Of a DNA stretch of 64,000 nucleotides, positions 4,857 to 8,155 are shown piece after piece. The translations under genes and the position numbers were made by a program. The number at the start of each line of letters is the position of its first letter. The stretch's first letter is position 1. The notes under the pieces are model-generated. The model was given only the letters and a program-made list of their open reading frames with translations, had not been told where the DNA came from and did no database searches. Origin of the DNA: Mycolicibacter heraklionensis (lineage in GTDB: Bacteria > Actinomycetota > Actinomycetes > Mycobacteriales > Mycobacteriaceae); NCBI GenBank assembly GCA_001673575.1, contig LZME01000086.1, positions 28,238 through 92,237 of the forward strand, read 5' to 3'.

Positions 4857-4900
4857 CCGCAGGGGCCCGCACTCGGCAAAGCCGGTTGAGGAGGTAGTTG

Positions 4901-5719
4901 GTGGAAAAGCAGTTTCGCTTCGGCGTGGGCCTGAACCCGATCCGGTCGGCGACCGAACTCGCCGAGACCGCGCGGCGGCTGGAGGGCTTCGGCTTCGACG
5001 TCCTGCACGTGCCCGACCATCTTGGCGCCCCGGCACCCTTCCCGGTCCTGGTCGCCGCTGCCGCGGCCACCTCGACGATCCGGCTGGGCACCTACGTGCT
5101 CAACGCCGGCTTCTACAAGCCGGCGCTGCTGACCCGCGACATCGCCGACACCGACGTACTCTCGGGCGGGCGACTGGAGGTGGGGCTGGGTGCAGGCTAC
5201 GTGCGCGCGGAGTTCGAGGCCGCCGAGCTGCCCTTTCCCAGCGCCGGTCGCCGCGTCGAATACCTCGAGCACGTGACGAAATATGTAGCGACACACCAGC
5301 CGCGCGTGCCCATCCTGATCGCCGGCAGTGGTGACCGGCTACTGACCACGGCAGCGCGCCACGCCGACATCATCGGATTGACCGGGTCGCGGGTGGACGG
5401 CGCCGACGATTCGCTGGCCGAGCGAATCGACTTCGTCCGCGCGGCCGCCGGCAACCGGTTCGATGCCCTCGAACTGAACCTGGCCATCACCGCGGTGCCG
5501 ACCGACGGCTCCGGGACACCCAATCTGTCGCTGACCCGCCGGTTCGCGCCGACACTGTCGGATGAGGAACTGCTGGCCTCGCCCGCGGTGCTGTCCGGAT
5601 CGGTTGACGAGATGGCCGACACGCTGCGCGAACGCCGCCACCGCTACGGGATCAGCTACTTCACCGTTCAGCAGCAACACGCCGAGGCCTTCGCGGAGGT
5701 CATCGCCGCGCTGCGGTGA
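4901..5719 (+). CDS. LLM-class F420-dependent oxidoreductase
   Basis: The 272-residue protein is a bacterial luciferase-like (TIM-barrel) flavin/F420 oxidoreductase. Supporting strings are GFDVLHVPDH, RLGTYVLNAGFYKPALLTRDIADTD, and the glycine-rich GGRLEVGLGAGYVRAEFE, typical of F420-dependent mycobacterial members; the N-terminus resembles the TIGR03621 subgroup. GTG 4901 is chosen because GAGGAGG at 4888-4894 lies six bases upstream; a TTG at 4898 is in frame. The last 13 codons and the stop lie inside a direct repeat (5680-5730) that recurs at 7719-7769 on the other side of the restriction-modification cassette, so the 3' end of this gene marks an insertion point. The substrate is unknown. 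Confidence 0.9.
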   Translation: MEKQFRFGVGLNPIRSATELAETARRLEGFGFDVLHVPDHLGAPAPFPVLVAAAAATSTIRLGTYVLNAGFYKPALLTRDIADTDVLSGGRLEVGLGAGYVRAEFEAAELPFPSAGRRVEYLEHVTKYVATHQPRVPILIAGSGDRLLTTAARHADIIGLTGSRVDGADDSLAERIDFVRAAAGNRFDALELNLAITAVPTDGSGTPNLSLTRRFAPTLSDEELLASPAVLSGSVDEMADTLRERRHRYGISYFTVQQQHAEAFAEVIAALR

Positions 5720-5730
5720 CCAGCGCCCAC
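5680..5730. repeat. Left copy of the direct repeat flanking the RM cassette
   Basis: This 51-bp segment matches 7719-7769 at 48 of 51 positions; the differences are a CG/GC swap and one G/A. It encodes the last codons of the LLM oxidoreductase, ending VIAALR and stop, and on the other strand the last codons of a copy of the small membrane protein gene. The similarity fades leftward over about nine more bases. Confidence 0.9.
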
Positions 5731-5754
5731 TGCCCGTGCACGAGAGTGATTTGG

Positions 5755-6594
5755 TTACAAGAACTTTCGCAGCCGGGCAGCATCCTCGATATCGCTGCGG
5801 AACTTGTCGAGAGTGCTCAACGTATACATGCCGTCGATCGCCCGATCATCCCAGAGCTGATGGATCTTCCGCAGGTCCGAGACGCGATTCTTCCAGCCGA
5901 TCCCATCAATCACTGCGATCACAAACTGCCGTGGCGAGCGGACCTCTGCCATCTCCTCGATCTCCCGCACCGCGTCGGTGAGCTTGCTCCCCGTCGAGTC
6001 GTAGCCCTTTGCTGCGACCACGATCTCTGCGGCACTGCCGTTAGGGATGACCAGGTCACACGGAGCGGTACGCCCGCTGCGCCCTACGAAACGCGTGCGC
6101 GTCTCATAAGGCAGGCCGAGTCCCTTGACGACGGCTTCGATCTCGTCTTCTACGTGACGGCCCTGCTGTCCGGCAGCTGCAGCCGCGGCCCGGGTACCTG
6201 CACGCGCGATGAGTACATCCGCGGCCCCGTACTGCGCGTGTAGTTGCGCAACGGTCTGCGGTACCAGAAAGTACGCGTCGTCGAGCCAGTCGATCAGCTC
6301 CGAAGCTCGGGTGCGGGCAAGCCGCACCCAGCCGGAGGTATCAAACTCATGTTTGAGCGCATTCTTGAGCTTCTCCTGGCCAAGGCCGGTAAAGAGTGCC
6401 AGCACGGGTACGTCGTGGGGGTTGGCGGTCACCCACGCAGTGAGCGACGCGCGATCGATCGTTGGCAGGGCAGCCAGCGACACGACCGCGCGACGGATAG
6501 CGTCGGTCTCGGGCGTAGCGGCGAGCGGGTCGATGTGCGCACTCAAACGGCCGAGTGCACCGAGGTAATCAGGGAAGGCAACGGCGTCGCTCAT
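5755..6594 (-). CDS. DpnII-like type II restriction endonuclease
   Basis: The 279-residue protein has the C-terminal region of the DpnII/MboI-like restriction endonuclease group. The putative PD-(D/E)XK core is Asp180 (CDLVIP) followed by IVVAAK at 191-196 and GYDSTGSKLTD. The usual acidic residue of the E-x-K half appears as Ala194 (A-A-K), so the metal ligand may be replaced or supplied from elsewhere, for instance from EDEIEAVV at 149-156. The start overlaps the methylase stop by 4 bp (ATGA), so the two are translationally coupled with the methylase first. Base composition is visibly less GC-rich than the neighbours. The pair sits between two convergent host genes inside a direct repeat. 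GATC recognition is only an inference from family resemblance. Confidence 0.8.
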   Translation of the reverse strand: MSDAVAFPDYLGALGRLSAHIDPLAATPETDAIRRAVVSLAALPTIDRASLTAWVTANPHDVPVLALFTGLGQEKLKNALKHEFDTSGWVRLARTRASELIDWLDDAYFLVPQTVAQLHAQYGAADVLIARAGTRAAAAAAGQQGRHVEDEIEAVVKGLGLPYETRTRFVGRSGRTAPCDLVIPNGSAAEIVVAAKGYDSTGSKLTDAVREIEEMAEVRSPRQFVIAVIDGIGWKNRVSDLRKIHQLWDDRAIDGMYTLSTLDKFRSDIEDAARLRKFL

Positions 6595-7652
6595 GCATTG
6601 GTTCCGACAAACAGGTACTCGGACACGTCGCGGCGGGTGGCCGCCGAGTGCGTTCCAAAGCTGTACTTGTGGTCGACGGCGATTTTCCGGACGTCAGTCT
6701 TCACCTTGCCGAGCAAGTCGACGATCCGGCTGGCATCGGGAAGCGCGTTCGAAGAGTAGGACAGCACGATCGCGCCCGCATCCTCGAACCGCTCAAAGGT
6801 CCGCAGTAGCGCGTCCTCGATCGTGCGCTTGTAGGCAAACGGGGTGAATCGCTTGGCTATCTTCTTGGTCTTTGTCTCTTCCATGATCGTGACATCGCGC
6901 CAGTAGACGCTTAGTCCTTCGAGGAAGTGATACCGCTTCATGTAGTCGGCGTCGTCCCGCGGCGGCGCGTAGGGCGGGTCCAGATACACCAGGTCCGGGG
7001 TCTCGACGTCCAGGTCGAAGATATCGCCGGTGACCGTGCGGCTCTTGCCTCCGTTACTGAACACGACGGCGTTGTACTCCGCGGCAGCACGACGAAAATG
7101 CTCCCGCAGCGTCATGCGGAGATCACGGCGGCCGTCAGCGTACTTGCTGGAGTCGGTGAAGGTGAACACCCCGCGAGGTTGGCGTCGAGCAGCGGAGAGC
7201 ACCAGCGCGGAGATCGCGATGTCTCGCTTGAATCCGGTCAGCTGATCGATGTGCGACCACGCCGAATCGAGGAACGCACGATCCTCCGGGGTGTAGTAGA
7301 GCCCGTCGAACTTGGTCTGGATGAAGTCACGGTCATCGGCCGCCGGTCCGCAGATCAGGTCAATGTCCGCAGCGGTGAGTCGCACAGACGAGTTAGCAAC
7401 AGTCGCCCGGGTGATCATGCCGGGGAACGCGAGAAAATCGTTGCTCGTGACCGAGAACCCTTGTGCCTTTAACAGGTACGAGACCACCCCAGAACCGGAG
7501 AACGCATCGATGGCCGTTTCGCCGCCAAGATCGGCAAACAACCGCTCCAGGTGCGGCAACAGTTGGTATTTCGAGCCCATGTAGCGCAGCCGCGGAAACC
7601 TCTGGGCCCGTTCAAGAACCTCGGCCGTCGTTACCGACCTCGACTGCGTCAT
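6591..7652 (-). CDS. D12-class (Dam-like) N6-adenine DNA methyltransferase
   Basis: The 353-residue protein has the D12-class layout: a motif X-like RYMGSK near residue 24, the SAM-binding motif AIDAFSGSG near 47-55, and the catalytic DPPY at 225-228 (YLDPPY). This motif order is that of the alpha group, to which Dam and M.DpnII belong. It would methylate adenine in the target of the downstream nuclease and protect host DNA. ATG 7652 is preferred because GGTGA lies four bases before it; ATG 7673 is in frame upstream. Local sequence is noticeably poorer in GC than the flanks (for example 6841-6900 is near 50%), consistent with acquisition by transfer. Confidence 0.88.
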   Translation of the reverse strand: MTQSRSVTTAEVLERAQRFPRLRYMGSKYQLLPHLERLFADLGGETAIDAFSGSGVVSYLLKAQGFSVTSNDFLAFPGMITRATVANSSVRLTAADIDLICGPAADDRDFIQTKFDGLYYTPEDRAFLDSAWSHIDQLTGFKRDIAISALVLSAARRQPRGVFTFTDSSKYADGRRDLRMTLREHFRRAAAEYNAVVFSNGGKSRTVTGDIFDLDVETPDLVYLDPPYAPPRDDADYMKRYHFLEGLSVYWRDVTIMEETKTKKIAKRFTPFAYKRTIEDALLRTFERFEDAGAIVLSYSSNALPDASRIVDLLGKVKTDVRKIAVDHKYSFGTHSAATRRDVSEYLFVGTNA

Positions 7653-7718
7653 GACGTCACCATGACACAGCATTACGACAGTCCCCGGCAGGCCCGGTAC
7701 GTGTCCGGCTCACGAACC

Positions 7719-7769
7719 CGCCGAGGCCTTCGGCGAGGTCATCGCCGCACTGCGGTGACCAGCGCCCAC
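7719..7769. repeat. Right copy of the direct repeat flanking the RM cassette
   Basis: This segment matches 5680-5730 at 48 of 51 positions. On the plus strand it reads as a detached end of an LLM oxidoreductase gene (AEAFGEVIAALR, stop). On the minus strand it encodes the true C-terminus of the gene at 7739-8155 (VTAVRR, stop). Confidence 0.9.
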
Positions 7770-8155
7770 ACCGAAAAGCCCAGCGCACCCACTACGGCGA
7801 CGGCGCCGATGTAGAGGCCGTAGCCGGCGGTGATCGGCGCCGCGACGTTCAACCGGTAGTACCAGATGCCCAATGCAGCGATGACCGCAGAGTCCAGCAC
7901 CGCGACCACCGCGGCCAGCCGGGTGAAGAGTTCCCGAGCCACCATCGCGCCGGCCACCAACAGAACGGAGGCGAGCAGCACGATCAGCTGGCCGACACCA
8001 AATCGGGGCGGCAGCGCGATGGCACCGGCGCTGCCGCCGATCGCGCTGGCATGCCCGCCGCCGTTGGCCGACGTGGTCAGCCACGGCAGCCATGCACTGG
8101 CCGACAGCAGGGCCGCGCACAGCGCAATCAGCCAACCGGGACGCGAGCGAGTCAT
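7739..8155 (-). CDS. Small four-helix membrane protein
   Basis: The 138-residue protein has four hydrophobic segments, around residues 8-26, 52-70, 78-97 and 105-133, and no catalytic motif. I do not recognise a named family. It follows the ABC-F gene on the same strand with a gap of nine bases. A TAGTGT hexamer (8167-8162), formed partly by the ABC-F stop codon, lies six bases before the ATG and could give a leaderless transcript. Its last codons lie in the right-hand direct repeat of the RM cassette, and it was probably once convergent with and overlapping the LLM oxidoreductase gene. Confidence 0.8.
   Translation of the reverse strand: MTRSRPGWLIALCAALLSASAWLPWLTTSANGGGHASAIGGSAGAIALPPRFGVGQLIVLLASVLLVAGAMVARELFTRLAAVVAVLDSAVIAALGIWYYRLNVAAPITAGYGLYIGAVAVVGALGFSVWALVTAVRR

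Follow-up and report, generated by a model that had tools for sequence, protein, structure and literature searches.

Our analysis suggests, with a probability of roughly 0.6, that a restriction-modification (RM) operon was inserted a single time between two convergent genes of Mycolicibacter, that the insertion was accompanied by a duplication of about 65 bp, and that the operon has since been inherited vertically under selection and has been lost by recombination between the duplicated copies at least once, probably twice. This history builds on direct observations: an empty site, the duplication itself, boundaries common to the carriers, co-divergence of operon and flanks, purifying selection, and empty genomes nested among carriers in the flank-gene and rpoB trees. 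The window, by which we mean the whole 64-kb stretch of DNA analysed, belongs to contig C86 of a genome of 4.72 Mb and has the following features at the locus.

4898..5719, + strand: LLM oxidoreductase, TIGR03621-type, F420-dependent (NCBIfam TIGR03621, E 5.8e-104); left neighbour, its 3′ end lying in the left repeat
5666..5730, + strand: left repeat copy, comprising the last 51 coding nt of the LLM gene, its stop and 11 nt; completes the LLM gene
5731..7702, no strand: inserted cassette, 1972 bp; GC about 61-65% (the flanks shown having 62-72%), measured in 500-bp windows
5755..6594, − strand: predicted restriction endonuclease (REase), weakly DpnII-like, 279 aa (PF04556, 19.6 bits, cut-off 23)
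6591..7673, − strand: D12-class adenine-N6 DNA methyltransferase (MTase), 360 aa (PF02086, 53.7 bits, cut-off 22; PADLOC MTase_II, E 1.3e-88)
7674..7702, − strand: MTase leader, 29 nt, the entire upstream DNA brought by the cassette; contains GGGGACTGTC
7703..7769, − strand: right repeat copy; completes the membrane-protein gene, its far end (needed by the LLM gene only) having a 2-nt indel
7739..8155, − strand: small membrane protein, 138 aa; right neighbour

The REase and MTase genes overlap by 4 nt and alone occupy the space between the repeat copies, so that there is no room for an integrase or transposase. A sequence-only reading of the same DNA had claimed that the cassette lacks both, and it was right. 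The nuclease is recognisable mainly through its family: PF04556 matches, at E values up to 0.1, were obtained for all nine REase family members scanned, and residues P178, D180 and K196 are invariant in all 11 aligned sequences. PADLOC gave no match for the REase, and no relative was found in the PDB. From these domain assignments the cassette is a predicted Type II RM operon, and we infer that it restricts DNA. The MTase may have its own promoter within the cassette, because the leader motif GGGGACTGTC resembles, by eye, a motif found 5′ of the MTases at several other loci. The right neighbour has no Pfam or NCBIfam match at E 0.001; it is called a membrane protein by eye and after the sequence-only reading.

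That reading had also pointed to a 51-bp segment (5680-5730) repeated with three mismatches at 7719-7769 and bracketing the methylase and nuclease genes. Our comparison confirmed this repeat and extended it, in the window to a direct repeat of 55 nt (5676-5730 and 7715-7769; 93% identity, four mismatches) and in M. icosiumassiliensis to two copies alignable over 65 nt. In the window, degraded traces of the extra stretch persist at 7703-7714, and the original duplication thus amounts to about 65 bp (5666-5730 and 7703-7769). The local score of the repeat is 47; the best of just under 3000 150-bp stretches drawn at random from the window scored 30. When the 67-bp right copy was used as a query against its own genome, the runner-up match covered 40 bases at 85%, and no third copy of comparable length was found in the window strain. 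The cassette boundaries are common to the three carriers described below: the left copy terminates 11 nt past the LLM stop, and the right copy starts with GTCCAGCAG in M. icosiumassiliensis, this start being changed in the window and in G069, including the 2-nt indel. These common boundaries divide the insertion into about 65 bp of duplicated and 1972 bp of unique DNA. The LLM stop (5717-5719) lies inside the left copy and the membrane-protein stop (7739-7741, − strand) inside the right one. As the sequence-only reading had it, neither host gene is broken. The core of the right copy (7745-7755) is CCGCACTGCGG, a small perfect inverted repeat, and that of the left copy (5706-5716) is CCGCGCTGCGG; the core doubles as codons of the LLM end. 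A hairpin was considered and rejected, the fold of the left copy being no stabler than its shuffles (z 0.45).

The clade concerned is Mycolicibacter, judging by the closest named LLM matches. We compared the junction in 24 genomes. Of these, 21 came from our sample of 396 genomes of the genus and were chosen for a membrane-gene region at least 77% identical to the window DNA over at least 380 bases; the other three, all named, lie outside that sample. Repeated records were counted once (four such pairs were confirmed and two more taken as repeats), and genomes given G handles were assigned to Mycolicibacter by similarity, further members being possible beyond the sample. Four states of the junction were found. 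Twelve loci are flush, with the ends of the two convergent genes overlapping (UM_WGJ, M. heraklionensis, G022, M. nonchromogenicus, M. arupensis, M. engbaekii, G073, M. longobardus, MYC123, MYC017, G371 and G376). The RM cassette fills three (the window genome, G069 and M. icosiumassiliensis), and a TetR+SDR pair occupies eight (M. algericus, M. kumamotonensis, G086, G149, G308, G331, G362 and G016, the last with the LLM gene absent from the locus). In G347 (locus L306), a metabolic cluster of about 6.9 kb lies between the same two genes; its ORFs look, by eye, hydrolase-like, TetR-like, FAD-monooxygenase-like, SDR-like and acyl-CoA-dehydrogenase-like. The repeat is present once in 12/12 flush loci and twice in 3/3 RM carriers; among the TetR+SDR loci it occurs once in seven of the eight and is missing from one, and G347 has one copy, the second being absent. 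Since four states are found between the same neighbours, the junction is a minor hot spot for cargoes, and the long repeat accompanies the RM insertion alone. These counts agree with the proposal in the sequence-only reading that an empty site should hold a single repeat. Its contrary case of unrelated flanks was not encountered, the flank genes being the same in carriers and empties, and the search that it recommended for other genes between these neighbours yielded the TetR+SDR pair (8/24) and the metabolic cluster (1/24).

Among 69 more distant loci, the membrane gene was within reach in five and adjoined the LLM gene in none; LLM, SDR, TetR and ABC-F matches below 40% identity were discarded in this locus survey. 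The junction alignment contains 12 flush rows, two species being entered twice. In G149, a short piece (L063) carries a partial SDR gene, the end of an ABC-F gene and a membrane gene that resembles that of the window at 97%. Because this piece is flanked by runs of N and lies apart from the true locus, we disregarded the second membrane-gene copy as a likely artefact of scaffolding, the piece probably being a contig that is misplaced or foreign.

Relatives of the operon are scattered. The MTase was found in 14 of the 396 genus genomes: the window's, G069 and 12 others, among which one match is weak (36%), one is a fragment and one is split in two, the full-length rest being 72-77% identical. 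In M. palustre, a related RM operon (L117, 11169-13081) is found some 3.3 kb downstream of the LLM gene, a different place from that in the window. The closest MTase matches outside the genus are on Rhodococcus plasmids (80%), where the gene behind the MTase aligns to the nuclease at 63 and 66%; phages gave one MTase match, at 37%. Some of the RM operons look decayed or broken, with the MTase in two pieces in G218 (L176), a fragment of it in G015 (L177) and an internal stop in the match in G338 (L174). Within 1.5 kb, flanking repeats of at least 30 bp were found at 0/12 of the other operon loci (L117 and L167-L177, L177 being a fragment; L178 gave no hit), so that a general habit of long duplications on insertion is not borne out for this operon family. 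Shorter flanking repeats, of 23-29 bp, occur at two of the 12. In G055 (L167, 4119-7421), the final 29 bp of a tRNA-Arg gene are present twice and enclose the operon and ORF remnants, and by eye there is no integrase-like ORF between the copies; this may be a CIME-like mini-island. In G121 (L168, 5793-10637), the operon lies between 23-bp repeats (96%), a Phage_integrase ORF is found just outside, and no tRNA gene was found there. L168 also has a 353-aa ORF, of which L167, by eye, seems to retain pieces only.

The operon may thus travel in att-flanked mini-islands, as at L167 and L168. Therefore, the main rival explanation for the window is that its repeats are attL and attR at gene 3′ ends, left by an integrase that has been lost or that acted in trans. 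CIMEs and other att-flanked mini-islands occur at gene 3′ ends, and repeats that rebuild such ends are typical of integrase att sites. The window cassette is like them in lacking an internal integrase and in having a gene 3′ end restored by direct repeats, and its sister operons lie between the 29-bp tRNA-Arg ends of L167 and the 23-bp repeats of L168, the latter with an integrase outside. However, the cassette leaves no room for an integrase, and none was recognised by eye among the ORFs of the other cargoes of the junction (L063-L065, L306). The junction pattern has 0 exact matches in viral_contigs and no match among phages, its four plasmid matches (81-86%) fall in TRAP transporter genes, and both halves of the repeat appear native. 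Unlike a CIME, the Mycolicibacter site is without a found integrase partner or att relative among viral contigs and phages. Overall, we regard an integrase origin as unlikely, while granting it some weight.

The age of the cassette favours a single insertion with vertical inheritance. Between the window and G069, dS values (Nei-Gojobori) are 0.162 for the REase and 0.172 for the MTase, with 0.143-0.177 for the flanks; between the window and M. icosiumassiliensis they are 0.377, 0.260 and 0.248-0.313, respectively. Since the cassette has diverged between species about as much as its flanks, it is best interpreted as one old insertion that was inherited vertically. Both genes have dN/dS values of 0.04-0.10, indicating purifying selection. 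REase dS (0.38-0.44) lies above that of the flanks, which counts against the main explanation. For the mismatches between the repeat copies, the sequence-only reading had offered either age or the import of a foreign 3′ end together with the cassette. Age would be the simplest reason, because the cassette is as diverged as its flanks and is under purifying selection, whereas nothing in the sequence requires import of a foreign LLM 3′ end and both repeat halves look native.

Constraint is divided between the two copies, clearly for the membrane-protein side and weakly for the LLM side, with small counts throughout. In the membrane-protein part of the repeat, the right copy is changed at 0/93 sites in the three carriers and the left copy at 7/93 (Fisher p 0.014, sites being treated as independent). 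Of the 102 LLM-only sites, 22 differ in the right copy, 14 of them owing to a single stretch that is shifted in two rows; with this stretch (first nine columns) excluded, the right copy differs at 8/75 sites, and the left copy differs at 7/102 (p 0.42). The empties, represented in this comparison by 8/12 flush genomes, differ at 22/272 sites of the LLM-only part, and outside the shifted stretch the right copy is no different. The evidence that the right copy has decayed in its LLM-only part thus comes mainly from one indel. We accordingly rejected a clearly complementary decay of both copies, which is true of the membrane-protein part and of that one indel but not of the remaining LLM part.

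Because the empties show no positive scar, the argument for loss rests on the tree. Four codon-aligned flank genes, with the repeat excluded, gave the order (M. icosiumassiliensis,(M. nonchromogenicus,(UM_WGJ,(WIN,G069)))), where WIN is the window strain; 8/24 genomes were used, M. engbaekii without ABC-F. UM_WGJ groups with the window strain and G069 at 97/98, and the empties UM_WGJ and M. nonchromogenicus nest among the carriers. A clade of carriers was rejected by the flank genes (p 0.00125) and by the flank genes together with rpoB (p 0.00036); rpoB alone gave the same order as the flank genes, with p 0.039 for the carrier clade. Such a clade was not rejected by carB (p 0.375), ileS (p 0.207), rpoB+carB+ileS (p 0.239) or unlinked raw loci (p 0.339). 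We discarded two sets of raw-flank alignments that split the window from G069 despite 95% identity and rejected every clade tried, the carrier clade and window+G069+WGJ alike; these had been aligned although M. engbaekii gave no ABC-F match. In windows touching the junction on both sides, UM_WGJ is nearest to the window or to G069, both carriers. For M. nonchromogenicus, two junction windows are nearest to carriers (one in a tie), and farther out the nearest row varies. Replacement of the cassette in UM_WGJ by an imported empty allele was considered and rejected, as the 200-bp windows next to the junction revealed no tract. It is therefore likely, rather than proven, that the cassette was lost precisely, by recombination between the repeats, the simplest history being one insertion and two losses.

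Patchiness could also reflect transfer instead of loss, the cassette and its repeats being swapped by homologous recombination in the flanks in the style of minimal mobile elements. Four states at one junction in 24 genomes, with different whole-gene cassettes among them, would fit such exchange, as would G376, which is flush, yet has a GGCT protein 94% identical to that of M. algericus, a bearer of TetR+SDR. On the other hand, dS of the cassette is not below that of the flanks, the flank genes of the carriers give an order equal to that of rpoB, and the membrane-protein gene is less identical between the window and M. icosiumassiliensis (87.6%) than between the window and UM_WGJ (90.7%). For the RM cassette, exchange through the flanks is improbable on this evidence. 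Two independent insertions at one place, one in the lineage of M. icosiumassiliensis and one in that of the window, would account for carriers that do not form a clade in the flank and rpoB trees, but with three carriers sharing the same boundaries and a cassette divergence as old as the flanks, we consider this very improbable.

The favoured history, a single insertion followed by vertical inheritance and loss, could have proceeded as follows. A stripped two-gene Type II RM operon of 1.97 kb, encoding an adenine MTase and a DpnII-like nuclease, would have inserted once, before M. icosiumassiliensis and the window lineage separated, at the site where two convergent genes overlap by their 3′ ends. 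The resident DNA at the break would have become duplicated over about 65 bp, the left copy completing the LLM gene and the right copy the membrane-protein gene, so that neither host gene was harmed. Since an identical resident stretch of 65 bp is required on either side of the insert, the joining of long staggered ends, each of them filled in, is a plausible route; the duplication may thus have come from a staggered break or a template switch filled in during end joining. Ku is present in 6/6 genomes examined. The operon would then have been inherited with the chromosome and retained by selection, and would have been lost at least once and probably twice (in UM_WGJ and M. nonchromogenicus), presumably by direct-repeat recombination restoring the original junction without a scar. 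A more speculative extension, to which we attach little credence, is that the gene-end overlap acts as an integrase-free attachment site: the operon would excise as a circle keeping one repeat, leave a perfect junction behind and re-enter any Mycolicibacter overlap by homologous recombination. If true, the RM operon would be a minimal reversible element with ends borrowed from host genes, harmless to both neighbours by construction.

The kind of event that we propose is already known. Passages of PMC3874152 describe RM genes whose insertion duplicates a long stretch of the target, "in the order of 100 bp", and such insertion is also described in a part of PMC3031569, while the corresponding text of PMC1643837 names H. 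pylori for it; Nobusato et al. 2000 and Furuta et al. 2010 are cited for the Helicobacter pylori cases (via PMC3874152, PMC3031569 and PMC1643837). As far as these passages describe them, the Helicobacter cases share with ours an RM unit without a mobile element, an empty site in relatives and a direct target repeat of the order of 100 bp. The Mycolicibacter case differs from them in spanning species, in belonging to an actinobacterium and in that relatives of the operon do not follow the same pattern. A possible further difference is that the target duplicated here consists of two overlapping gene ends, both of which are rebuilt. The minimal mobile elements of Neisseria (Saunders & Snyder 2002), as defined in excerpts of PMC4269198 and PMC3082526, likewise have conserved neighbours and alternative whole-gene cassettes, often RM systems. 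Unlike them, our RM cassette is without sign of exchange through the flanks, and a target duplication is outside the definition quoted there. Among the papers listed for RM systems in Mycolicibacter or mycobacteria, titles and abstract openings contained nothing on the present locus.

What is unusual here is the legibility of the detail, a single clade containing empty sites, filled ones and some that have probably reverted. In the portions of the literature cited above, movement of small RM operons without a transposase or integrase is known as a pattern of genome comparison rather than as a mechanism. The Mycolicibacter junction offers one clade with several named species, a duplication that can be dated against its flanks, and bacteria that possess the end-joining protein Ku. 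Because empty, filled and probably reverted sites occur together and the duplication is datable, this locus offers a clean natural example in which to test how insertions of this type come about and are reversed.
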